Below, one piece after another: positions 2,593 through 46,721 of a stretch of 64,000 nt of DNA (positions within the stretch are counted from its first letter, which is position 1; each line of letters starts with the position of its first letter). Source of the DNA: Luteitalea sp. TBR-22 (GTDB lineage Bacteria; Acidobacteriota; Vicinamibacteria; Vicinamibacterales; Vicinamibacteraceae). The DNA lies in contig NZ_AP024452.1 in the NCBI RefSeq assembly GCF_016865485.1, forward strand, positions 3,928,501-3,992,500, in the 5' to 3' direction. Under the pieces are notes generated by a model. It saw only the letters and a list, made by a program, of their open reading frames with translations, was not told the origin of the DNA and did no database searches. The position numbers and the translations under genes were made by a program.

Positions 2593-3357
2593 CTACTGCG
2601 CGGCGAACACGAACTTCCGGAACGCGGCAGGGACGTGGAAGCTCGGCGCCCCGGTCGGCGACCACGCACGGTTGACCGACCCCTCCTTCGGGTTGGCGGG
2701 CCCGTTCGGGCGCTCGATGCGGAAGGCGTTGAAGCCCCATGCGTCGCCGGGAGCCGGCGGCAACGCCACCTTCTCGGGCAGCGGGAGCGACCGGAAGCCG
2801 GCCCACGGTGCGAACGCCGTGGCGATCCAGCGCTTCGGCGAGCCATCGGCGTTCTTCTCGTGTCGCACCGCCGTCTGCAGCCCCTCGTGGTTCCAGGTGA
2901 GGTCCGAGGTCACCGTCGGATGCGGCGCGACCATGCGCACGTCGCACACCACGTTGGTCGGGCTGATCTCCAGTTCCCAGTAGTCCTTCCCCGCCCAGGC
3001 GGGATCGAGGAAGATCTCGACCACCTCCTCGTCCCACAGGTGATCGTCGCGCCTGGTCATGGTGGCCCAGGGCGCCGGGTCGTCGGCGTCCCAGCGGAGG
3101 TAGAGCCCCTCGGGCGCCCAGAGCGCGCGCAGCCGCGTCTCGTACGGGGCACTCCCCCACGACAGGACCTCCGCCGCCTTCCACGCGCCATCGTCGGCCG
3201 CCAGCAGCGCGGCCTGGGAGGCACCGCCGGCGCGGTGGACCGTGTACGACGCATCGGGCGGTTGAGGTGTCTGAGCCGGCCGGGCCTGGGCCGCGGCGAG
3301 GACGGACACGGCGAGCGTGGCAATCAGGACGATGCTGGGGAGGGCGACGGTGCGCAT
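2593..3357 (-). CDS. secreted carbohydrate-binding family 9-like protein
   Basis: A 254-residue secreted or periplasmic protein with a signal peptide (hydrophobic VALPSIVLIATLAVSVLAAAQA). The rest resembles the CBM9-like domain found as stand-alone proteins. Features seen are YTVHRAGG, then LYLRWDADDPAPWATM, then HLWDEEVVEIFLDP, then YWELEISPTNVV, and a C-terminal GFNAFRIERP segment. Such domains bind sugar chain ends; the target here is unknown and no catalytic domain is attached. The start ATG 3357 lies 6 nt from a TATACT box. The gene is bounded upstream by the heptamer repeat arrays that precede alaS. Confidence 0.8.
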   Translation of the reverse strand: MRTVALPSIVLIATLAVSVLAAAQARPAQTPQPPDASYTVHRAGGASQAALLAADDGAWKAAEVLSWGSAPYETRLRALWAPEGLYLRWDADDPAPWATMTRRDDHLWDEEVVEIFLDPAWAGKDYWELEISPTNVVCDVRMVAPHPTVTSDLTWNHEGLQTAVRHEKNADGSPKRWIATAFAPWAGFRSLPLPEKVALPPAPGDAWGFNAFRIERPNGPANPKEGSVNRAWSPTGAPSFHVPAAFRKFVFAAQ

Positions 3358-3363
3358 GCGGGG

Positions 3364-3369
3364 AGTATA
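3364..3369 (-). promoter_or_regulatory. -10 box (TATACT) of CBM9-like gene
   Basis: A near-consensus TATACT on the minus strand is separated from the ATG by only 6 nt, implying a leaderless transcript. Any -35 element would have to lie inside the adjacent GGCTCAG tandem array. Confidence 0.5.
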
Positions 3370-3372
3370 GAA

Positions 3373-3414
3373 GGCTCAGGGCTCAGGGCTCAGGGCTCAG
3401 GGCTCAGGGCTCAG
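3373..3414. repeat. tandem heptamer array, six perfect GGCTCAG units
   Basis: Six exact head-to-tail copies of GGCTCAG lie between the divergent CBM9-like and alaS genes. The same unit (GGCTCAG/GGCTCAA), in either orientation, recurs in at least ten other gaps in this window. Confidence 0.95.
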
Positions 3415-3416
3415 GC

Positions 3417-3486
3417 CGAAGGACGAAGGCCGAAGGACGAAGGACGAAGGACGAAGGCCGAAGGACGAAGGCCGAAGGACGAAGGC
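3417..3486. repeat. tandem heptamer array, ten CGAAGGA/CGAAGGC units
   Basis: Ten contiguous 7-bp units of CGAAGGA or CGAAGGC directly follow the GGCTCAG array, with the same period but a different unit. A degraded copy in reverse orientation (TCCTTCG, GGGCCTT) lies upstream of the mqnE-like gene near 44826-44870. Confidence 0.95.
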
Positions 3487-3522
3487 CCAGCGCCGGGGCT
3501 GGGGCCCGGCGGGGCCCCGGAT

Positions 3523-3528
3523 TACAAT
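3523..3528 (+). promoter_or_regulatory. candidate -10 box of alaS (TACAAT)
   Basis: TACAAT ends 8 nt before the alaS ATG, which would give a leaderless or nearly leaderless mRNA. No -35 hexamer was recognised, and no Shine-Dalgarno sequence fits between the box and the ATG. Confidence 0.45.
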
Positions 3529-3536
3529 GGCCTGCT

Positions 3537-6182
3537 ATGCGTTCGCGCGACATCCGCAGCGGGTTCCTCGACTTCTTCGAATCGGCCGGCCACAAGCCGG
3601 TGGCCAGCGCGTCCCTGGTGCCGGGCGACGACCCGACGCTGCTGTTCACCAACGCCGGGATGAACCAGTTCAAGGACGTCTTCCTGGGCAAGGAAAAGCG
3701 CGACTACGCGCGCGCCACCACCGCGCAGAAGTGCATGCGCGTGAGCGGCAAGCACAACGACCTCGACAACGTCGGGCCCTCGCCGCGGCATCACACGTTC
3801 TTCGAGATGCTCGGCAACTTCTCGTTCGGCGACTACTTCAAGGGCGAGGCCATCCCCTACGCCTGGCGCCTGCTCACCGAGGTCTGGCAACTGCCGAAGG
3901 ACCGGCTGTACGCCACGATCTTCATGGGCGAGCCGGGCGTGCCACGCGACGACGAGGCCTACGACCTGTGGCGCAAGTTCCTGCCCGCCGACCGCATCGG
4001 CGAGCTCGGCGCCGAGGACAACTTCTGGCAGATGGGCGACACGGGGCCGTGCGGCCGGTGTTCCGAGATCTACTTCGTCAAGGACGACGGGTCCATGATG
4101 GAGATCTGGAACAACGTGTTCATGGAGTTCGACCGGCAACCCGGCGGCGCGCTCGAGCCGCTGCCGGCGCGCTCGATCGACACCGGCATGGGCCTCGAGC
4201 GCATCACCGCGGTGCTGCAGGGCGTCGACAGCAACTACGACACCGACCTGTTCCAGCCGCTGCTGCAGGAAGTGGCGCGGATGTGCGGGACGCCGTACAC
4301 GGGCAGCGACCAGGCCAGCACCTCGATGCGGGTCATCGCCGACCACATGCGGGCGACGACGTTCCTCATCGCCGACGGCGTCATCCCGAGCAACGAGTGG
4401 CGCGGGTACGTGCTGCGCAAGATCATGCGTCGGGCGATGCGGCACGGCAAGAAGCTGGGCATCACCGAGCCCTTCATGCACGCCCTCGCCGATCGGGTCG
4501 TGGCGGAGATGGGCGAGGCGTATCCCGAGCTCAAGGCCAATCGCGACAGCGTCGTGAAGGTGATCCGCTCCGAGGAGGAACGCTTCGACGCCGTCCTGAC
4601 CGCCGGCCTCGGGCGCCTCGAGCAGGTCCTGGACCGCGCCGCGGCCTCCGATCGCAAGGTCGTGCCGGGCGACGAGATGTTCCGCCTGTACGACTCGCTC
4701 GGCCTGCCGCTCGACTTCATCGAGGATCTCGCCAGCGAGCGGCAGCTCGCCGTCGACCGGGCCGGCTACGAAGCCGCGATGGAGGCCCAGCGTGAGCGCG
4801 CCCGGGCCGGCAGCCACTTCGAGGTGTCGCGCGCCCAGGGCTTCGCGGTGAGCAGCCCGAGCACGCAGGCGGCACTCGACGCGCTCGGCGACCGCTTCGA
4901 CGGCTACGAGGTCACCGAGATCCTCGAGGCGACGGTGGTGGCGCTGTTCGACGCGGAGCGGCACGAGGTGCCGGCGCTCGATGCCGGCGCGACCGGCTAC
5001 GTCGTGCTGGACCGCACGCCGTTCTACGTCGAGAGCGGCGGCCAGGTGTCGGACACGGGGACGCTGACCGGCCAGGACGGCGCGGCGACGGTGCAGGCCA
5101 TGTCGCGGCTGGTGGCCGGCGGACCGCGGGTCCACCAGGTGACCGTCGATCACGGACGGCTGCAGGCCGGTGCCATCGTCGCGGCGCGCGTCGACCTGGC
5201 GCGTCGGACGGCCATCAGGCGCAACCACACCGCCACGCACCTCCTGCACGCGGCCCTCCGGCGGACGCTCGGCACCCACGTGAAGCAGGCCGGCTCACTG
5301 GTCGCCCCCGATCGACTGCGGTTCGACTTCGTCCATACCGGGACGATTTCGGCCGAGGAGCTCGAGACCATCGAGCGGATCGTCAACACGGAGATCATGC
5401 GCAACACGGCCGTGCAGACCACGTTGCGCAAGACCGATGAGGCAATGGCGCTCGGCGCCATGGCGCTGTTCGGCGAGAAGTACGGCGAGACGGTGCGGGT
5501 CGTCGACATCCCGGGCTTCAGCCTGGAGCTGTGTGGCGGCACGCACTGCCGCGCGACGGGCGACATCGGGGTGTTCGCCGTGCTCGCCGAGGGCGGCGTG
5601 GCCGCCGGCGTGCGCCGCATCGAGGCGGTGACCGGCGAGGGCGCGGTGGCCCTGCTGCAGGGCGAACGACGGCACCTGCAGGCGGTGGCCGGTGAGCTGC
5701 ACGTGACGGCGGCCGAAGCGGCCGAGGCGGCGGCGAAGCTGCAGGGCGAGGTCAAGCGCCTCACCAGGGCGCTCCACGAGGCGCGCGTGAAGGCCGCCCT
5801 GGGTGGCGGCGACGGCGCCGGCGGCCAGCAGACCCACGAGGTCGGCGGCCTGAAGGTGGTGACGCGACGCGTCGACGGCGTCGACAGGTCGGCCCTGCGC
5901 GAGCTGGCCGACCAGATCAAGGCCTCGATGGGGTCCGGCGTCGTCGTCCTGGCGGCGGAGGCCGAGGGCAAGGTGAGCTTCGTGGTGTCGGTGAGTCCTG
6001 ACCTGACCGCCAGGGTCAAGGCCGGCGACCTGGTCAAGCGCCTGGGCCCCATCGTCGGGGGCGGGGGCGGCGGTCGGCCGGACTTCGCCGAGGCCGGCGG
6101 CAAGCAGCCCGAACGGATCGCCGACCTGCTGGCCGCAGCGCCACGCGCCGTCGGCGAGGCCGCAGGGGTGGCGGCCGACTGA
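3537..6182 (+). CDS. alaS: alanine--tRNA ligase
   Basis: An 881-residue alanyl-tRNA synthetase, close to the usual length of about 876. It charges tRNA-Ala in the cytoplasm and clears mischarged Ser and Gly. The class II catalytic domain is at the N-terminus (SAGHKPVASASLVP, then FTNAGMNQFKD, then RHHTFFEMLGNFSFGDYFK). The editing domain carries the zinc ligands HTATHLLHAALR and CGGTHCRATG. The C-Ala/DHHA1 domain ends the protein (VVVLAAEAEGKVSFVVSVS, then GGGGGRPDFAEAGG). The start ATG 3537 is set by the conserved RSRDIRSGFLDFFE; an open extension upstream to 3267 merely translates the heptamer arrays. A strong hairpin follows the stop. Confidence 0.98.
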   Translation: MRSRDIRSGFLDFFESAGHKPVASASLVPGDDPTLLFTNAGMNQFKDVFLGKEKRDYARATTAQKCMRVSGKHNDLDNVGPSPRHHTFFEMLGNFSFGDYFKGEAIPYAWRLLTEVWQLPKDRLYATIFMGEPGVPRDDEAYDLWRKFLPADRIGELGAEDNFWQMGDTGPCGRCSEIYFVKDDGSMMEIWNNVFMEFDRQPGGALEPLPARSIDTGMGLERITAVLQGVDSNYDTDLFQPLLQEVARMCGTPYTGSDQASTSMRVIADHMRATTFLIADGVIPSNEWRGYVLRKIMRRAMRHGKKLGITEPFMHALADRVVAEMGEAYPELKANRDSVVKVIRSEEERFDAVLTAGLGRLEQVLDRAAASDRKVVPGDEMFRLYDSLGLPLDFIEDLASERQLAVDRAGYEAAMEAQRERARAGSHFEVSRAQGFAVSSPSTQAALDALGDRFDGYEVTEILEATVVALFDAERHEVPALDAGATGYVVLDRTPFYVESGGQVSDTGTLTGQDGAATVQAMSRLVAGGPRVHQVTVDHGRLQAGAIVAARVDLARRTAIRRNHTATHLLHAALRRTLGTHVKQAGSLVAPDRLRFDFVHTGTISAEELETIERIVNTEIMRNTAVQTTLRKTDEAMALGAMALFGEKYGETVRVVDIPGFSLELCGGTHCRATGDIGVFAVLAEGGVAAGVRRIEAVTGEGAVALLQGERRHLQAVAGELHVTAAEAAEAAAKLQGEVKRLTRALHEARVKAALGGGDGAGGQQTHEVGGLKVVTRRVDGVDRSALRELADQIKASMGSGVVVLAAEAEGKVSFVVSVSPDLTARVKAGDLVKRLGPIVGGGGGGRPDFAEAGGKQPERIADLLAAAPRAVGEAAGVAAD

Positions 6183-38090: not shown

Positions 38091-38852
38091 TCAGGCGGGC
38101 CGCTCGGCAACGTAGAGATAGACGACGCCGAACGTCAAAGGGACGGCCTCGCAGCGGGTCAAGCCGGCAGCCTGCAGTTGGGCGACGAACTCGGCCGGCG
38201 GCGTGAAGCTCTCGACCGATGCCGGAAGATAGGCGTAGGCCTCGCCGTGCCGCGAGACCAGCCGGCCGAGGCGCGGCAGGACGTTGCGGAAGTACCACAG
38301 GTAGCCGGCCCGGATCAGCGGCTGCTGCGGCGTGGAGAACTCCAGGATGGCCAGGCGCCCTCCCGGCTTCAGCACCCGCGCCACCTCCCGAAGGGCCACA
38401 CCCGCGTCCTGGACGTTGCGGATGCCGAAGGCGATGGTGACCGCATCCATGGAGGCCGACCGCGCCGGCAGCCGCATCGCATCGCCGCGCACCAGCGGGA
38501 TGACCGCGGCCCGCCCCTCGTCGCGCAGCTTGCGCTTGCCCACCTTGAGCATCTCGGCCGAGAAGTCGACGCCGAGCACGCGGCGGGCCAGCCGCCGCCT
38601 GACCATCGTCCGGGCGACGTCGCACGTGCCGGTGCACAGATCGAGCACCTGCTCCCGTCCCGTCAGCTTCAGGCGCCGCACGGCGCGCCAGCGCCAGTAG
38701 AGGTCCTGCCCGCCGCTCAGCACGTGGTTCAGCAGGTCGTAGCGGCCGGCGATCTCGTCGAACATGCCGGCGATCTTGGCCGGGGCCTTGCCGGTGTCCG
38801 GGGTCACGCCGCCGTAGGTGGTCGACGCGGCCCGTTCGGTGGTGCTGGTCAT
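38091..38852 (-). CDS. menG: demethylmenaquinone methyltransferase (UbiE/MenG)
   Basis: A 253-residue SAM methyltransferase. UbiE motifs are present: GMFDEIAGRYDLLNHVLSGG, VLDLCTGTCDVARTM for SAM binding, DAVTIAFGIRNVQDAGVALR, and ILEFSTPQQPLIRAGYLWYF. It performs the last C-methylation of (demethyl)menaquinone. The start ATG 38852 overlaps the ubiX stop by 4 bp. Because the neighbours are futalosine-pathway genes, menaquinone rather than ubiquinone is the likely product. Confidence 0.93.
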   Translation of the reverse strand: MTSTTERAASTTYGGVTPDTGKAPAKIAGMFDEIAGRYDLLNHVLSGGQDLYWRWRAVRRLKLTGREQVLDLCTGTCDVARTMVRRRLARRVLGVDFSAEMLKVGKRKLRDEGRAAVIPLVRGDAMRLPARSASMDAVTIAFGIRNVQDAGVALREVARVLKPGGRLAILEFSTPQQPLIRAGYLWYFRNVLPRLGRLVSRHGEAYAYLPASVESFTPPAEFVAQLQAAGLTRCEAVPLTFGVVYLYVAERPA

Positions 38853-39478
38853 TCGCGGTCCGCCTGCGGGTCCCACATGGGATAGAGCTGGTGGTCGATG
38901 CGCAGCAAGGACAGGACGCGCCCGGCCATGAAGTCGGCAAGGTCGCTGATCGACTGCGGACGCTGGTAGAAGCCCGGCATCGCCGGCATGACGGTGGCGC
39001 CGGCTTCGGCGCACAGCACCATGTTCTTCAGCTGGGGCAGGCTGAGCGGCGTCTCGCGCGGCACGATGATCAGCGGGCGGCGTTCCTTGAGCATCACGTC
39101 GGCGGCCCGCTCGACCAGCGAGCGCGACAGCCCGTGCGCGATGGCGGCCATCGTCTTCATCGAGCAGGGCACGATCACCATCGCGTCGGCGCCCTTGCTG
39201 CCGCTGGCGATGCGCGAGCCGAGGTCCTTGTTGCTGTGGAGCACCCAGCCGCCGCGGCGGACGCCCTCGCCCCAGGTCTCCTCGAGGTAGGCCTGCAGGC
39301 GATCGACGCGCGCCGTGGCGCCGAGCTCGTCGACGAGCAGGCGCCGGCCGTACTCGGTGATCACCAGGTCGACGTGCTGCCCGTGCTGCAGCAGCGCCGA
39401 CAGGGTGCGCATCGCGTAGAGCGCCCCGCTGGCGCCGGTGACGGCAAGCACGATGCGTCGCGTGGTCTCAACCGACAT
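38849..39478 (-). CDS. ubiX: flavin prenyltransferase UbiX (MqnM-type)
   Basis: A 209-residue flavoprotein that prenylates FMN to make the cofactor of UbiD-type decarboxylases. Motifs: VLAVTGASGALYAMRTLSAL for FMN binding, VIVPCSMKTMAAIAHGLSRS, and RRPLIIVPRETPLSLPQLKN. In the futalosine route a UbiX/UbiD pair acts on 1,4-dihydroxy-6-naphthoate derivatives. The partner UbiD homologue is not in this window. It overlaps ubiA by 11 bp at its 5' end. Confidence 0.94.
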   Translation of the reverse strand: MSVETTRRIVLAVTGASGALYAMRTLSALLQHGQHVDLVITEYGRRLLVDELGATARVDRLQAYLEETWGEGVRRGGWVLHSNKDLGSRIASGSKGADAMVIVPCSMKTMAAIAHGLSRSLVERAADVMLKERRPLIIVPRETPLSLPQLKNMVLCAEAGATVMPAMPGFYQRPQSISDLADFMAGRVLSLLRIDHQLYPMWDPQADRE

Positions 39479-40334
39479 AGATGCTCAATCCCGTGGTGGC
39501 GAGGTACAGCAGGCCCACCCAACCGTTCATGTCGAAGGCGCGCTTGACCTGCGACAGGTCCGACGCGCTCACCAGCGACTGCTCGAAGACCAACAGCCCG
39601 GCGACCAGCGCCACGCCACCCTGGTACACGGCGCCGAGCCCGGCGACGACACCGAGCAGCGCGAGGCTGGCGACGGTGATCACGTGCAGGGCCCGCGAGA
39701 TGGCGATCGACTGCGCGACGCCGAAGCGCACCGGAATCGAGCGCAGCCCGTGGGCCCGGTCGAACTCGAGGTCCTGGCAGGCGTACAGCACGTCGAAGCC
39801 GCCCACCCAGCTGCCGATCGCCAGCCCGAGCAGCACCGGCTGCCACGACGGGCCGCCGCCCGACGCGATCCACCCGCCGACCGGCGCCACGGCCATCGCC
39901 AAACCCAGGAAGAACTGCGTCGCCCAGGTGTAGCGCTTGGCGAGCGAGTACCAGAAGACGATGGCGAGCGCGACCGGGGCGAGCGCGAGGCAGAGCGGGC
40001 TGATGCGCGCGCACACCAGCAGGAACACGACGCTGGTCACCACGAGGAACACGACCGCCTCGGTGCGCGACATCGCGCCCCGCGGGATCTCGCGACTGGC
40101 CGTCCGCGGGTTCAGCGCGTCGTAGTGCGCGTCCACGAGGCGGTTGAAGGCCATCGCCGCGCTGCGGGCCGCCACCATCGCCGCGACGATCCAGCCCACC
40201 CGCGCCCACGTCATGGGCACCAGACGGCTCGCGAGCAGCGCGCCCACGAGGGCGAACGGCAGCGCGAACACCGTGTGGCTGAAGCGCACGAACCCGAGGT
40301 AGGTGCGCAGACGGGACAGGGGATCAGGGGTCAA
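39468..40334 (-). CDS. ubiA: UbiA-family prenyltransferase (MqnP-type)
   Basis: A 288-residue polytopic membrane enzyme with about eight helices. The two Asp-rich prenyl-diphosphate motifs appear as AFNRLVDAHYDALNPRTASR and ACQDLEFDRAHGLRSIPVRF. It would attach the isoprenoid chain to the naphthoate ring in menaquinone synthesis. The likely start is TTG 40334, supplied by the GGCTCAA repeat sequence on the opposite strand; the real start may lie a few codons further in. It overlaps ubiX, and mqnX lies upstream. Confidence 0.93.
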   Translation of the reverse strand: MTPDPLSRLRTYLGFVRFSHTVFALPFALVGALLASRLVPMTWARVGWIVAAMVAARSAAMAFNRLVDAHYDALNPRTASREIPRGAMSRTEAVVFLVVTSVVFLLVCARISPLCLALAPVALAIVFWYSLAKRYTWATQFFLGLAMAVAPVGGWIASGGGPSWQPVLLGLAIGSWVGGFDVLYACQDLEFDRAHGLRSIPVRFGVAQSIAISRALHVITVASLALLGVVAGLGAVYQGGVALVAGLLVFEQSLVSASDLSQVKRAFDMNGWVGLLYLATTGLSIYVG

Positions 40335-40463
40335 GGCTCAGGGCTCAGGAAGCAGACTCTCGGGTTTCGGCGTTCGGCTTACGGATCTCCCAGCGGGATC
40401 CATCTGCGGCTCAGTGTCCGCTGTCGACTCCCGACTGCCGATTCCCGACTCCCGCCACCAGCG
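40331..40463. repeat. mixed heptamer-derived sequence between mqnX and ubiA
   Basis: AAGGCTCAGGGCTCAGGAAGCA lies at the ubiA start (the motif is given here as overlapping GGCTCAG units), and CTCCCGACTGCCGATTCC-type sequence related to the GGCAGTC family lies near 40427-40463. The latter encodes the last residues of mqnX (NRQSGVDSGH). Confidence 0.65.
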
Positions 40464-41724
40464 TATCCAACCAACGCAGGTCGGAGGTGTCGGCCGCGTC
40501 GGCGACCAACCATTCTTCCACGTCCTCGACGTCGGCGGGAGGGACGCGCACCACCGCCCGGCTCGAGGCGCCCGGCGCCAACACGCCGAGGTGGTCCAGG
40601 CCGAGCGCCTGCGCGCCGCCGAGGGTCGCCGCACGGAGCAGGGTCGCGGCTGGCACGGCCGGCGCGGCCGCCCGCAAGGCCGCCAGTTCCGCGAACACGT
40701 TGAGGTCGGCGACGCTGGACAGGCTGTCGGTGCCGACGGCCAGCCGCACGCCCGCCGCCACCGCGTCCGCTACAGGAGGGACGCCTGCCCCGACCCATCG
40801 GTTGCTGCGCGGGCACAACACGAGCGTGGCGCCGACACCCGCGAGGACGTCGAGTTCGGGTCGCGTGAGCTGGGTGCCGTGCACGACGAGCAGGTCGCGG
40901 TGCAGGGCGCCGAGCTGCTGCAGGTAGGTCACCGGGGCCACCCCGGGAGCCTGCCAGTCGGGATCCCAGCTCCCGAGATCGGTCAGGAGGTCGCGGAAGG
41001 GCCCGGTGCCGCTGGACAGGAACTCGAGTTCCTCAGGTGACTCGGCCAGGTGGATGGAAGAGACCGGGCAGGCGGGCTGCTCGCGCGTCATGAACCACGT
41101 GACCGGCCGCCCTGGAGAGAGCGCCCCGATCAGCGGCGCCGACGTGGAGTACGGCGCGTGCGGCGCCACCGACGCGATGACGCGGGCACATCCCTCTTCC
41201 GCCAGGCGCCCCTGGGCAGTCATGGCGCCGAGCCGTGTCTCGCTCGCGATGCGCCCGGCATCATCGGCCTTGAATCCCAGCGCCTCGCGGAAGTGGATGC
41301 CCGACAGCGAGGAGGCGGCGAGCGGACCGATGGCCGCGTCCGTGTTGCCGATGTCGCCCACGGCGGCCGTGCCCGCCGTCTCGGCGCTGGCAATGGCCGT
41401 CGCGGCAGCCTCCACCACCTCACCCATCGTGGTGGGCGCACCGAACCGCACGCCGAGCATCGCGCGCACCCAGGCCACGAAGCTGCTGGCGGGCGGTACC
41501 CGGCCCGCCAGGTGCGACAGCTCCAGGTGCGTGTGTGCGTTGACCAGGCCAGGCAGGATCGCGGCGTGGCCGAGGTCGATCGTGGTGGCGGGCACCGGCC
41601 CCGGCGCGCCCGCCGCGCCGACGCCGACGATCTCCCCGCGCGTCGGGTCGACGTCGACCCACCCGTCACGAATGACCGGCGCGGCAATCGGCAGGACCCA
41701 GCGGGCGTGGACGCGGATGATCAT
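40411..41724 (-). CDS. mqnX: amidohydrolase, aminodeoxyfutalosine deaminase-like (MqnX)
   Basis: A 437-residue metal-dependent amidohydrolase. The N-terminal metal site is LPGLVNAHTHLELSHLAGRV; further ligands are VAPHAPYSTSAPLI, SSIHLAESPEELEF and VVHGTQ. LAVGTDSLSSVADLNVFAEL carries the last Asp. The best functional guess is the aminodeoxyfutalosine deaminase of the modified futalosine pathway, because it sits between ubiA and mqnA-mqnC; the family also includes chlorohydrolases and guanine deaminases. The C-terminus (NRQSGVDSGH) is read from repeat DNA. ATG 41724. Confidence 0.8.
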   Translation of the reverse strand: MIIRVHARWVLPIAAPVIRDGWVDVDPTRGEIVGVGAAGAPGPVPATTIDLGHAAILPGLVNAHTHLELSHLAGRVPPASSFVAWVRAMLGVRFGAPTTMGEVVEAAATAIASAETAGTAAVGDIGNTDAAIGPLAASSLSGIHFREALGFKADDAGRIASETRLGAMTAQGRLAEEGCARVIASVAPHAPYSTSAPLIGALSPGRPVTWFMTREQPACPVSSIHLAESPEELEFLSSGTGPFRDLLTDLGSWDPDWQAPGVAPVTYLQQLGALHRDLLVVHGTQLTRPELDVLAGVGATLVLCPRSNRWVGAGVPPVADAVAAGVRLAVGTDSLSSVADLNVFAELAALRAAAPAVPAATLLRAATLGGAQALGLDHLGVLAPGASSRAVVRVPPADVEDVEEWLVADAADTSDLRWLDTLVAGVGNRQSGVDSGH

Positions 41725-41833: not shown

Positions 41834-41860
41834 CGTCGGCCAAGGTCGACGCCTACACCT
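41834..41860. repeat. second copy of AGGTGTAGGCGTCG palindromic element
   Basis: On the minus strand AGGTGTAGGC is followed by GTCGACC-TT-GGCCGAC, one mismatch from a palindrome. It matches the element at 15452-15479 and overlaps the end of the mqnC reading frame, supplying its TAG stop codon from GTGTAGGC. Confidence 0.7.
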
Positions 41861-43937
41861 GCGGAACCTGCGCGCGGCGCTCGCGCTCGGCGCGCGTGCG
41901 CGCCTCGTACGCGGCCAGTTCGGCCGGCATCAGGTCGGCGCCGTCCTTCTTCGCGACGTCGAGCGACAACCGGCGCGGCACGGCCCGTTCGCGGAACACC
42001 GGCTGCCCCACCAGGTCGTAGTGCATGTTCCGGCGCATCGCCGTGAAGCCCATGTTCTCGATGTTGCGGACGATCTCGACTTCGTCCATGCAGTAGCTCG
42101 CGCCGGCGGCCCGCACGACGTTCTCCTCGATCATCACGCTGCCCATGTCGTTGGCGCCGAACGCGAGGCTCAACTGCCCGACCTTGCCGCCCTGGGTCAC
42201 CCACGACGCCTGCAGGTTGTCGAAGTTGTCGAGCACGATGCGCGCCAGGGCGAGCGTGCGCAGGTACTCGACCCCGGTGAGCTCCACGCCCGCGAGCTCG
42301 GTGTGATCGGGCTGGTAGCTCCACGTGATGAACGCGGTGAAGCCACCGGTCTCGTCCTGCAGGGTGCGGAGCCGCATCATGTGCTCGATGCGCTCCTCGG
42401 GCGTCTCGACGCTCCCGTACATCATGGTCGCCGTGGTGCGCAGCCCCTGCAGGTGCACCTCGCGCATCACGCCCAGCCACTCGTCAGCGGTGGCTTTCCC
42501 GTAGCAGTTCAGCAGCTTGCGGACGCGGTCGACGAGGATCTCGGCGCCACCACCGGGAACGCTGTCGAGTCCGGCGGCGATCAGCCGCGACACGACCTCG
42601 GGCACCGGCAGCTTCGACATCCGCGAGATGTGCAGGATCTCGGGCGGCGACAGCGCGTGCAGGCGGAACGTCGGGTACTGCGCCTTGACGGCGCGGAACA
42701 GGTCCTCGTACCAGGCCAGCGGGATGTCGGGGTTGTGCCCGCCCTGGAGCAGCAGCTGGTTGCCGCCGACGCTGATCGTCTCGTCGATCTTGGCAAACAG
42801 CTCCTCGCGCGAGAGCACGTAGCCGTCGGGGCTGCCGACCGTGCGGTAGAACGCGCAGAAGTTGCAGCGCGCCACGCACACGTTGGTGTAGTTGACGTTG
42901 CGGTCGATGATGTATGTCACCACCCGCTCGGGATGGCGGCGGGCACGAATCGCGTCGGCCAGGCGGCCGAGTTGCCACGTGCTCGCGTCGCGGTACAGCA
43001 CCAGCGCCTCGTCGGCGTCGATGCGCTCGCCGCGCTCCACCTTCTCCACAATGGCCTGCAGCGACATCTGCCTCGTGCCCTTCCCTGCTGTCGACATGCC
43101 CACCTGCTCCCCCACCTGGGACCGGACCGCGGCCGGCACGCCCAGGGCCTCGACGGCGCGCAGCACGTCGGGGCGCTGCGGCGCGAGACCGTCGGCCATG
43201 GCGAGGGTGAGATAGCGCGAGAGGCCCCGGAGGGCGCCCTCGTCCAGATCGTACCGAATGTTGTGGCGCAGGTACTGCTCGAGACCGGCCGCGCGCTCCG
43301 TCCGGGCACCGGCCTCGGCCCGCGCCAGTGCCTCGATCGCCTCGACGCCGGCCCGCCGCGCCTCGTGCAGCCGCGTCACCAGCGCCGGGCTGATGACTCC
43401 CGGCCGCGCAATCCACGTCGCGAACACGAAGGGCAGCCCGGTGAACGCCTTCCACGCCTCACCGAGGTCGATCTTCTGCGCCCCCAGCGCCTCGTAGGGC
43501 GCCTCGAGCGCCGGGTCGCCGATCACCAGTGCAGCATCGGCCACCGACAGCATCGCGGCCAGATCCGGCGTCGCATCGACGAAGGTCGGCGCAATCCCGA
43601 AGTGATGGCGGCACAGCACGCGCAGCAGGCCGACCGAGCTGCGGGAGCTCACGTCGAGGGCGATGCTGCGGACCTGCGGCACCGGCACGCGCGTGAACAG
43701 CGCCACCGACTGCACCGGGCCGTCGCAGGCAATCGCCAGGCCCGGCACGATGTCGTAGGCAACCCGGCCGCGCAGCAGCTCGATCACCGGCACCAGGCCG
43801 AGGTCGATCTCGCCGGCATGCAGCAGGGCCGCGCACCTCGACGGCACGTCGAGGCGCACCGCGAACTGCGGGTCGCGGTCGAGGCCGTACTCGAGGGGCC
43901 GGGCGTTGAGGAACCCGACCGCGCCGACCCTGATCAC
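41853..43937 (-). CDS. mqnA-mqnC: fused chorismate dehydratase (MqnA) - dehypoxanthine futalosine cyclase (MqnC)
   Basis: A single 694-residue reading frame. Residues 1-280 are MqnA: IRVGAVGFLNARPLEYGLDR, then GEIDLGLVPVIELLRGRVAY, then RSIALDVSSRSSVGLLRVLC. MqnA makes 3-[(1-carboxyvinyl)oxy]benzoate from chorismate. Residues 281-694 are MqnC, a radical-SAM enzyme with the cluster motif CVARCNFC (Cys 354, 358, 361), then GGHNPDIPLAWYEDLF and WSYQPDHTELAG. No stop separates them; the junction is around VGEQVGMSTAGKG. An internal ATG at 43097 has AGGTGG upstream and could also yield free MqnC. GTG 43937 overlaps the mqnE-like stop. Confidence 0.92.
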   Translation of the reverse strand: MIRVGAVGFLNARPLEYGLDRDPQFAVRLDVPSRCAALLHAGEIDLGLVPVIELLRGRVAYDIVPGLAIACDGPVQSVALFTRVPVPQVRSIALDVSSRSSVGLLRVLCRHHFGIAPTFVDATPDLAAMLSVADAALVIGDPALEAPYEALGAQKIDLGEAWKAFTGLPFVFATWIARPGVISPALVTRLHEARRAGVEAIEALARAEAGARTERAAGLEQYLRHNIRYDLDEGALRGLSRYLTLAMADGLAPQRPDVLRAVEALGVPAAVRSQVGEQVGMSTAGKGTRQMSLQAIVEKVERGERIDADEALVLYRDASTWQLGRLADAIRARRHPERVVTYIIDRNVNYTNVCVARCNFCAFYRTVGSPDGYVLSREELFAKIDETISVGGNQLLLQGGHNPDIPLAWYEDLFRAVKAQYPTFRLHALSPPEILHISRMSKLPVPEVVSRLIAAGLDSVPGGGAEILVDRVRKLLNCYGKATADEWLGVMREVHLQGLRTTATMMYGSVETPEERIEHMMRLRTLQDETGGFTAFITWSYQPDHTELAGVELTGVEYLRTLALARIVLDNFDNLQASWVTQGGKVGQLSLAFGANDMGSVMIEENVVRAAGASYCMDEVEIVRNIENMGFTAMRRNMHYDLVGQPVFRERAVPRRLSLDVAKKDGADLMPAELAAYEARTRAERERRAQVPQV

Positions 43938-44824
43938 GCCGCGCCCCGCGGGCGCCAGGCGCCGTCCCGCTCGATCACCTCGAGCGAGGCCGCGGCGATG
44001 TTGCGCCGCACCTCCTCGACGATGGCGCGGCGCGGGCCGTGGGGCATGTCGTCGCGCGCCGGGACGGCGTCGATGTCGTCGGCGCCGAACAGGAGGCACG
44101 ACTGCGAGAGCTTGGCCCCCATTCGGGTCCAGTGCGCCGAGAGGTGCGCCACGTTGTCGAGCGCGATGCGCGCGAGCGCCACGTGCCGCATGTCGTCGAA
44201 GCCCGTGGTCGGGGCATCGGTGGGCTGCTCCACCGGGAGCGGCGCGCACGCACGCACGACGCCGGTGGCCGCCTGCCACGCCCGCAGCTGCTCGAGCGCG
44301 TCGAGCAGGGCGTCGCCGTCGAGGGGCGTGCCGAGCGTCACCAGTTGAATCGCCAGCCCGGCCGAGGCCACTGCCTGCAGTTGCGCCAGGTCGAGGCGAT
44401 CGAGGCGCGCGGTCGCGACGGCGTCGAGGCCGGCGGCCTTCAGTGCGGGCAGCACCGCGTCGAGGGGCCCGAGGCCCGCGAGCACGTCGAGCGACCACCC
44501 CGACAGCGGCAGCGAGGTCAGGGCACGGACACCGGCGACGGCAGCCACCGCCGCATCGAGGCTCGCGGGCACGCCGTCAAGCCGCACCTCGCCGGCCTCG
44601 GGGGCGAGTTCGAAGGCCCAGCCGCGGGCGTCGGCCGGCACGGCGAGCGTCTCGACGCGCACGAACGTGCCGCGTGCCCCGTGCAACCGCGCCCGCACGT
44701 CGGCCGCCAGCATGCCGAGCCCGATGAGGTCGCGGCTCGCGGCCAGCTCACGCAGCTCCGACGACGAGAGCGCGCCGCCCGAGGCGAGGCGCGTTGCCAG
44801 TTCTTCGATGTCCACGGTCACCAT
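43934..44824 (-). CDS. degenerate MqnE-like protein lacking the radical-SAM cysteine motif
   Basis: A 296-residue protein. The C-terminal part matches aminofutalosine synthase MqnE (PTTGFDDMRHVALARIALDN, then AKLSQSCLLFGADDIDAV, residues about 205-254). The N-terminus (IEELATRLASGGALSSSELR, then ADVRARLHGARGTFV) also fits. Where MqnE and MqnC have NxTNxCxxxCxFC, this protein reads VRVETLAVPADARG with no cysteine. It therefore cannot bind the [4Fe-4S] cluster and is unlikely to be a working MqnE. It sits at the mqnE position, and its stop overlaps mqnA (GTGA). A true MqnE would have to be elsewhere. ATG 44824; upstream is repeat. Confidence 0.8.
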   Translation of the reverse strand: MVTVDIEELATRLASGGALSSSELRELAASRDLIGLGMLAADVRARLHGARGTFVRVETLAVPADARGWAFELAPEAGEVRLDGVPASLDAAVAAVAGVRALTSLPLSGWSLDVLAGLGPLDAVLPALKAAGLDAVATARLDRLDLAQLQAVASAGLAIQLVTLGTPLDGDALLDALEQLRAWQAATGVVRACAPLPVEQPTDAPTTGFDDMRHVALARIALDNVAHLSAHWTRMGAKLSQSCLLFGADDIDAVPARDDMPHGPRRAIVEEVRRNIAAASLEVIERDGAWRPRGAA

Positions 44825-44953: not shown

Positions 44954-45892
44954 CTACCCCTGCGTCATCGCGTCGTTGATGCGCTGCGCAAGGGCGAGGG
45001 CCCGGCGGCCCTGCGCGCCATCGACCCGCGGTGCCCGTCCCTCGCGCACGGCGCCGACGAAGTCCTCGAGTTCGCGCCGCAGCGGCTCGGCCTCGGGCAC
45101 GGGCACCGGCCCGCCTTCGATGGCCGGGCGTGCGCCCTCCACCTTGCGGAGCCGCCACACCTCGAGCTCGCGGCTCGCATAATCCACCGACACGTACGCC
45201 GCGGGCTCGATGAACCGCACCTTGCGCACCCGGTCGCGGCTGATGCGGCTGGCCGTGAGGTTGGCGATGCACCCGCCGGCGAACTTCAGCCGCGCGTTGG
45301 CGATGTCGACGCGCCCGGTCAGCACCGGCACTCCGACGGCCTCGACCCCGACGACCTCCTCGTCGATCACCGACAGCAGCACGTCGAGGTCGTGGATCAT
45401 CAGGTCGAACACGACGTCGATGTCGAGGCTGCGATCCGGGAACGTGCCCAGGCGATGCACCTCGATGAAGCGTGGCCGCGTGAGGAACGGCCGCGCGGCG
45501 TCCACCGCCGGGTTGAAGCGCTCCGTGTGCCCCACTGCCAGCACGAGCCCCTTCGCGGCCGCACGCGCGATGAGGTCGTCGGCCTGCGCCAGCGTCGTGG
45601 TCATCGGCTTCTCCACGAGCACGTGGATGCCGGCATCGAGCAACATCGCCGCCAGCGCGTGGTGCGCCTCGGTGGGCGAGGCGATGGTCACCGCGTCGAC
45701 CTGGCCGACCAGCGCCGTTGCGTCGGTCAGCGACGTCGCAGCGCCGTGCTGGGCGGCGATCTCGGCGGCCCGCGTCGCGTCGACGTCGACCACGGCGTGC
45801 AGGCGCGCGCCCGGCGTGTCGCCGAGGATGCGCGCGTGATGGCGCCCGAGCGCCCCGACCCCGATCACCGCGACCCGCACCTCGTCAGCCAC
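44954..45892 (-). CDS. Gfo/Idh/MocA family oxidoreductase
   Basis: A 312-residue cytoplasmic NAD(P)-dependent dehydrogenase. The Rossmann motif is [20 protein letters not shown], and the catalytic Lys lies in [11 protein letters not shown]. The second half has [19 protein letters not shown]. Homologues with this sequence type are often encoded next to lipid A genes and act on UDP-sugars. It is 8 bp overlapping with lpxI, so a role in lipid A or surface sugar synthesis is plausible. GTG 45892. Confidence 0.87.
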
Positions 45893-46721
45893 GCGCCTGT
45901 TCTCCCAGGGGACGCCCCACCACGGTCACGCCCGCCGCGCCGGCGGCGTCGGCCACCGCGGCGCCGTCGAGCACGAGCGTGCGTCCGGCGTCGATCGACA
46001 GGAGGCGGATGCCCGCCTCCCGCAACACCGCGATCGTCGGCAGCCCCACGACCGGCACGTCGAAGCGCATGTCCTGCTGCGGCTTCGCTACCTTGATGAC
46101 GCAGGCGCCGGGCCCGGCGATTCGCCCCGCCCGGCGGATCGTCTCGTCGGTGCCTTCCATCGCCTCCACCGCCACCACCGCCTGGTCCTTCACGACGATG
46201 GTCTGGCCGATGTCGAGACCGGCAATCGCGTCGGCCATGCGATAGCCGAACGCCAGATCGGCCCGCGCCGCCTCGTCGGGCGGCGGCCCCGCGAGATGGC
46301 CGTCCCCGGCCAGCAGCGGCTGCAGGAACGCCGTCGAGTCGAGCAGTTCGATGCCCTTGCCCTTCATCACGTCGGCGATGGCCGAAATCAGCGCGTCGGT
46401 CGACTTGGCGCGCAGCCGCATCAGCACCTGCATCAGCGTCCAGTCGGGCGTGATGTTGGCAAACAGCTTCGCGTGCTTGACCTGCCCGGCCATCACGGCC
46501 TGGGCGCAGCCGGCCTCCTGCAGGATCTGGATGCAGCGGCCGAGTTGCCCGAGCGAGACCTTGTGGAGCGCGGCGCCGAGGGCAGCGGCTCGCTCGTCGA
46601 GGTCGGGCCCGGTCTCTTCCCTGATGGCGACGACGGTCACCGCGTGCCCGAGGGAATGGGCCGCGTCGAGCACGAGCAGCGGGAACCGGCCGTTGCCGGC
46701 GATGAGGCCGATGGAAGCCAT
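45885..46721 (-). CDS. lpxI: UDP-2,3-diacylglucosamine pyrophosphatase LpxI
   Basis: A 278-residue DUF1009/LpxI enzyme that hydrolyses UDP-2,3-diacylglucosamine to lipid X. Family segments: [18 protein letters not shown], then [20 protein letters not shown], then [11 protein letters not shown], then [20 protein letters not shown], with [20 protein letters not shown] near the end. It replaces LpxH, the enzyme used in gamma-proteobacteria. It lies 37 bp after fabZ-lpxA and overlaps the Gfo/Idh gene. Confidence 0.95.

Follow-up and report, generated by a model that had tools for sequence, protein, structure and literature searches.

What becomes of a radical enzyme's gene when the segment that would hold its cluster is gone and the gene is nevertheless kept in the operon of its pathway? 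The question is raised by the window, the stretch of 64,000 nucleotides from Luteitalea sp. TBR-22 (contig NZ_AP024452.1, positions 3,928,501 to 3,992,500) analysed here, in which the gene preceding mqnA and mqnC of the futalosine pathway of menaquinone synthesis encodes a cysteine-free protein, called X in the following, that is related to the radical S-adenosylmethionine (radical-SAM) enzyme MqnE. The answer proposed, tentatively, is a pseudoenzyme. The frame of X runs on the minus strand from an ATG at 44824 to a stop codon at 43934-43936 and encodes 296 residues; this position had been given in a preliminary description made from the letters alone, and the stretches quoted there (PTTGFDDMRHVALARIALDN, GADDIDAV and VRVETLAVPADARG) are all found in the translation. 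The translational coupling to mqnA proposed at the time is seen as well, as the stop codon of X and the GTG start of mqnA share four nucleotides (GTGA). In the 51 other X loci measured, both genes always lie on a common strand, and the nearest in-frame mqnA start gives the identical four-nucleotide overlap in 30 and a one-nucleotide overlap in seven. The guanine plus cytosine content at third codon positions is 0.929 in X, compared with 0.866-0.952 in the surrounding genes.

The homology to MqnE is borne out over the full length of the protein. X matches the MqnE profile TIGR03700 with 64.5 bits (E 7.6e-18) and the MqnC profile TIGR03699 with 48.7 bits, both far under the curated cut-offs of 434.55 and 428.1, respectively; CofH_C (PF19288) reaches 26.7 bits over 49 residues, just short of its gathering score of 27, and no match of X to Radical_SAM (PF04055) is listed up to E = 1. 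In profile-profile comparison, X aligns with MqnE of the same order with a probability of 99.7 over 291 columns and with MqnE overall with probabilities of 99.7-100 over 291-304 columns, i.e. along the entire chain. When balanced profiles of the two enzymes are used, X is nearer to MqnE (1.1e-38) than to MqnC (3.3e-33), and MqnE outscores MqnC for 48 of the 53 X sequences, with MqnC closer for the other five. With the curated profiles, the X of genome G010 reverses the preference (TIGR03699 91.1 vs TIGR03700 79.4). On these comparisons, X can be taken as shown to be a full-length relative of MqnE and less close to MqnC. It shares with MqnE (TIGR03700; crystal structures 6xi9 and 6xig) the predicted fold and, judging from family f16 discussed below, the operon slot, whereas the likeness to MqnC (TIGR03699) is that of a common superfamily, with a few X residues agreeing with MqnC, no cysteine motif in X, and a true mqnC two genes downstream of it.

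The cluster site itself is missing from X. The preliminary description was right that the cysteines are gone, but the letters are not replaced as it had supposed: in the alignment, the NxTNxCxxxCxFC segment of MqnE is deleted from X over about 28 columns, as is the GGG loop, and X is 68 residues shorter than the MqnE encoded in its own genome. CxxxCxxC is absent from 53/53 X sequences, and no column of their alignment holds more than eight cysteines. Radical catalysis by proteins of such sequence would be excluded on established radical-SAM chemistry. Among the 93 MqnE columns conserved to at least 90%, X keeps 26 and carries a fixed exchange in ten, while 17 are deleted and 40 lost; residues 192-292 hold 16 of the 26 retained columns.

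Despite the lost cluster site, the eight-stranded barrel of MqnE is predicted to survive in X, because the best structural matches of the model are MqnE crystals. The best AlphaFold model of the window's X (seven sequences) has a predicted local distance difference test score (pLDDT) of 86.9 and a predicted template modelling score (pTM) of 0.86, with the other four models at 72-76; Foldseek places 6xig and 6xi9 first (E 7.9e-17), and VIA-align superimposes the model on 6xig with Z 28.3 at 2.9 Å over 288 residues, the next family following at Z 20.4. According to the DSSP strings of the predicted models, from which all strand and loop placements given here were read, strand 3 is only two residues long in this model; the X of locus L037 is predicted with all eight strands (pLDDT 82.4, pTM 0.83; other models 68.8-81.9). 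The structure alignments exclude L040, in which some residues are undetermined.

One mark of a pseudoenzyme is the loss of catalytic residues from a protein that remains conserved, and X bears this mark. It occurs in 137 of the 162 genomes of the order, with matches of E up to 1e-38, and a stop codon lies inside the match in only two of those listed in the order-level search. Among 60 relatives it is present in 52 and without any match in six, with only MqnE or MqnC matches in the remaining two (G027 and G041); in a class sample of 149 genomes, the sole match listed from beyond the order comes from an intact MqnE (G444) and not from X. Ratios of nonsynonymous to synonymous substitution (dN/dS, NG86 method; finite values from the 14 closest pairs per gene) are 0.073-0.307 for X, 0.033-0.101 for MqnC, 0.031-0.241 for MqnE and 0.026-0.098 for MqnA, so that X is conserved under purifying selection though fast-changing. 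The alignment of 48 of the 53 X sequences has seventeen invariant columns, and five residues specific to X are fixed in 25/25 sequences, namely R81 (His in MqnE), D211, G263, R265 and R266, numbered from the ATG. The constraint across relatives that the preliminary description had wished to see examined is therefore present; it had counted spurious homology, or relatives with intact cysteines beside a randomly changing copy, against its proposal, but the homology stands, and it is in other lineages that intact mqnE genes were found in this slot.

X is also bound to mqnA and mqnC in its distribution. It is adjoined by mqnA in 52/53 loci, and mqnC is found in 51/53, the other two ending at contig edges. 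Of 25 genomes of the order without X, 23 were covered by a test for mqnC: eleven have no match to TIGR03699, eight have only matches at the level of MqnE (323-342 bits; confirmed as MqnE in two of the eight), and four have mqnC. All four end at contig edges, inside mqnA in G041, 242 bases past mqnC in G333, within X itself in G003 and inside mqnC in G371; thus no genome was read in which an assembled mqnA-mqnC neighbourhood lacks X. MqnC was not found in seven genomes of family f11 (G016, G026, G036, G045, G053, G359 and G360) or in G031, nor was a PF02621 protein in the three of them tested (G016, G026 and G031); the whole futalosine pathway seems to have been lost in these f11 genomes and G031. 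One genome, G376, carries two X-mqnA-mqnC blocks (L220 and L221), for which its estimated contamination of 3% is a possible source.

If X is no catalyst, the MqnE step has to be served from elsewhere, and a second, cysteine-bearing mqnE had accordingly been suggested as the thing to look for. It exists: G000:C1:1017638-1018687 encodes an MqnE of 472.5 bits, above the cut-off of 434.55, which does away with the notion of a genome lacking MqnE altogether, and no further mqn gene was recognised by eye within 4 kb around it. The preliminary description had offered a pseudoenzyme and a step done by another enzyme as an either/or; with the dispersed MqnE the second half is upheld, and the two halves hold jointly. 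All 21 MqnE proteins fetched from this genome and its relatives keep CxxxCxxC. Near 6.008 Mb lie, side by side, another PF02621 protein, taken to be MqnD, and a PNP-family protein taken to be MqnB. With candidates for MqnA, MqnE, MqnC and MqnD, an MqnB-like protein and an amidohydrolase all present, the known steps would therefore be covered without X as a catalyst. One table row of a published paper (PMC3914697) reads as listing MqnA, MqnC and MqnD for 5/5 acidobacterial proteomes.

The origin of X can be approached from its place in the operon and from trees. In f16, a sister family within the class, all three genomes read (L135, L136 and L219) have an intact mqnE ahead of mqnA-mqnC, and this gene order recurs in three further families (L134, L153 and L159); X therefore occupies the mqnE slot. 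The Gfo/Idh and LpxI flanks of X were sought upstream of the three f16 genes and gave no match, therefore only the mqnA-mqnC side is held in common. The mqnC profile used for the f16, other-family, f23, G376 and G444 locus reads contained the X of L029 as one of its 43 rows; the balanced profiles and the trees are unaffected. In quick trees (25 of the 53 X sequences and 87 of 95 rows in the first; 12 X sequences and 54 rows in the second), X branches as a single clade on a long stem, placed between MqnE and MqnC. The Shimodaira-Hasegawa-like approximate likelihood ratio test (SH-aLRT) gives 95-98 for all MqnE plus X against MqnC, and also 90 for X plus MqnC against MqnE; of three constrained placements, X beside f16 MqnE has the best likelihood. 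X is likely to be the old mqnE turned dead, though not on the strength of the trees.

A parallel was first noticed as short full-coverage matches in the phylum search. In family f23, 12 of 30 genomes carry an MqnC relative without CxxxCxxC, of 305-320 aa with one frame of 379 aa, while in the other 18 the relative is intact and has NYTNFCTEYCTFC; the loci named for the cysteine-deleted form are L127-L131, L161-L168, L179, L182, L189 and L190. A glycosyltransferase is found in the loci of 12/12 dead and 9/18 intact copies, and these therefore represent one locus, at least where it is shared. In five sequences of the dead form, 52 of the 110 columns conserved in MqnC are retained. Its dN/dS, calculated with 9 of the 12 copies, is 0.067-0.103 (ten closest pairs, nine with finite values), compared with 0.014-0.097 for the intact form, and points to strong purifying selection. 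Every one of the 12 genomes with the dead form has a further MqnC-like match, 28-33% identical; the six of these copies that were fetched all contain CxxxCxxC, with MqnC as their top-scoring enzyme, and for the three scanned MqnC is the best NCBIfam family, with 300-316 bits, below the cut-off of 428.1. An extra match also occurs in 5/18 genomes with the intact form, and in the single case fetched the scores for MqnE and MqnC are equal. The dead MqnC of f23 thus resembles X in the segment lost, in being kept by selection and in the cysteine-bearing MqnC-like gene elsewhere (6/6 fetched). In contrast to X, it is derived from MqnC, lies nearer to its own intact orthologue, has no mqnA match in its loci and has a glycosyltransferase as neighbour. 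Retention of a dead copy beside another cysteine-bearing gene is hence observed in two instances. L142 of family f41 is a less clear third instance, in which an MqnE-like protein beside mqnC (2948-4105, plus strand) has lost the first cysteine of the motif (GLPVPSCPLC); no MqnE over the cut-off was found in its genome, G231. In L156 (3804-4964, minus strand), the MqnE motif has the spacing Cx5Cx2C (NVCVYTYDCKFC) rather than Cx3Cx2C.

On the whole, X is best read as a pseudoenzyme belonging to the futalosine route of menaquinone synthesis that is kept for a non-catalytic job, as a partner of MqnA and/or MqnC or as the holder of an intermediate, a reading given slightly less than an even chance. 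Of the structural or regulatory role that had been suggested for it, the conserved, cysteine-free copy under purifying selection is established, and the role would be the best reading of it. In such a scheme, the dispersed mqnE would have taken over the catalysis of MqnE, and the operon copy would have stayed for a task depending on the fold and not on radical chemistry. The residues retained in X, mostly in strands 6-8 and beyond, together with the newly fixed arginines, would suit the binding of an anionic pathway compound such as the enolpyruvyl product of MqnA, which in the established pathway is the substrate of MqnE; alternatively, X may dock to MqnA and/or MqnC. By binding or docking, it could stabilise, hold or hand over an intermediate.

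Several observations weigh against a pseudoenzyme partnered with MqnA and/or MqnC. X has a higher rate of evolution than MqnA, MqnC or MqnE, and its specific fixed residues could equally form a new active site. In G047 (L043:2660-4776, plus strand), mqnC comes straight after X and mqnA is found on a different contig, so that MqnA cannot be the sole partner in every genome. The 98% complete genome G023 contains X together with mqnA and mqnC, but neither an MqnE above the cut-off nor more than one PF02621 protein was found in it. Both genomes tell against an overly narrow version of the partnership. Finally, all three placements of X are unrejected by the approximately unbiased test, with p-AU 0.615 beside f16 MqnE, 0.52 beside the order's MqnE and 0.427 beside the order's MqnC.

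The foremost alternative, though an unlikely one, is that X is a new, non-radical enzyme, its barrel re-purposed for an unlisted or alternative step, e.g. on the MqnA product or a side product. The charged residues specific to X, R81 in strand 2 and R265/R266 in the loop after strand 8, lie near the aspartates kept in strand 8, and the predicted barrel and the order-wide retention would suit an enzyme, yet the known steps already have their candidates, and the dead MqnC of f23, with its 52/110 columns, fits the retention of an old fold at least equally well. It is improbable, in comparison, that X is a regulator, tuning MqnA, MqnC or the dispersed MqnE through a bound pathway compound without any hand-over of an intermediate: the operon position, the coupling and a barrel largely retained after loss of the catalytic segment agree with this, but sequence cannot separate a regulator from a partner or holder, nor a new enzyme from either. 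A role outside menaquinone synthesis, with X merely sharing the operon, would draw on the upstream neighbours LpxI and the oxidoreductase, both matched in 46/47 loci, but is very improbable given that X and mqnC vanish together (of the 23 genomes without X, 19 have no mqnC and four end at contig edges) and that both X copies of G376 precede mqnA and mqnC. A decaying relic of the old mqnE, which the faster evolution of X relative to its neighbours might suggest, is hardly credible for a gene with invariant columns and a dN/dS well below 1 in 137/162 genomes, and was rejected on this order-wide conservation and dN/dS.

A pseudoenzyme with the role outlined for X would have counterparts among accessory subunits, in which an inactive or less active relative accompanies the active enzyme, as in Dph1-Dph2. 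Unlike in that pair, the whole cluster segment of X is deleted and its active relative is encoded far away. Pseudoenzymes as such are well known; if confirmed, X would indicate a non-catalytic role that has gone unrecognised in the futalosine pathway. No earlier description of a cysteine-deleted radical-SAM relative or MqnE pseudoenzyme kept order-wide in a biosynthetic operon was found in the open-access literature, which is weak evidence of absence. Somewhat less probable is the wider proposal that an essential duty other than catalysis attaches to the folds of MqnE and MqnC, for instance in a futalosine-pathway assembly holding MqnA, MqnC and an unstable intermediate; it is put forward because the cluster segment was lost twice in one phylum, from MqnE in the order and from MqnC in f23, with the copies kept under selection beside another cysteine-bearing copy. 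Were it true, this duty would outlive the chemistry and be hidden in ordinary species, where one protein does both jobs. If confirmed, X would also offer natural separation-of-function variants, in the form of lineages with catalysis and second role on two genes. That a gene resembling mqnE or mqnC lies within or close to an mqn operon is no proof that it does the chemistry.

Features of the X locus in the window. Neighbour counts over 47 loci are matches anywhere in the locus, not adjacency, and three genomes are counted twice (L034/L082, L037/L094, L039/L088).
Feature	Position	Strand	Basis and remarks
X, cysteine-free MqnE-related protein, 296 aa	43934..44824	-	open reading frame, profile match, predicted fold
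End of strand 1 and loop at the deleted CxxxCxxC segment (VRVETLAVPADARG)	44621..44662	-	alignment with MqnE
Best conserved third of X, residues 192-292 (APLP, PTTGFDD, W, GADDID, GPRR, ER)	43949..44251	-	X alignments
mqnA, chorismate dehydratase	43071..43937	-	PF02621, 177.4 bits; one frame with mqnC, inner boundary approximate
mqnC, cyclic dehypoxanthinyl futalosine synthase	41853..43070	-	TIGR03699, 484.5 bits, above cut-off 428.1; cysteines present; inner boundary approximate
Amidohydrolase	40411..41724	-	best NCBIfam is aminofutalosine deaminase family, below cut-off (118.4 vs 320 bits); matched in 40/47 loci
UbiA-family prenyltransferase	39468..40334	-	PF01040; matched in 37/47 loci
Flavoprotein family, UbiX-like	38849..39478	-	PF02441
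UbiE-family methyltransferase	38091..38855	-	PF01209; start provisional
Gfo/Idh/MocA oxidoreductase, upstream of X	44954..45892	-	PF01408; matched in 46/47 loci
LpxI (lipid A pathway), upstream of X	45885..46721	-	PF06230, PF17930; matched in 46/47 loci

In the window, mqnA and mqnC form a single open frame (41853-43937, minus strand), which is either a true fusion or a sequencing error. The preliminary description had considered docking of X to an MqnA-MqnC fusion; the single frame is there, but it is unique to the window among the 50 X loci with both genes (0/49 others), and docking to the fusion is for this reason not the general role of X.

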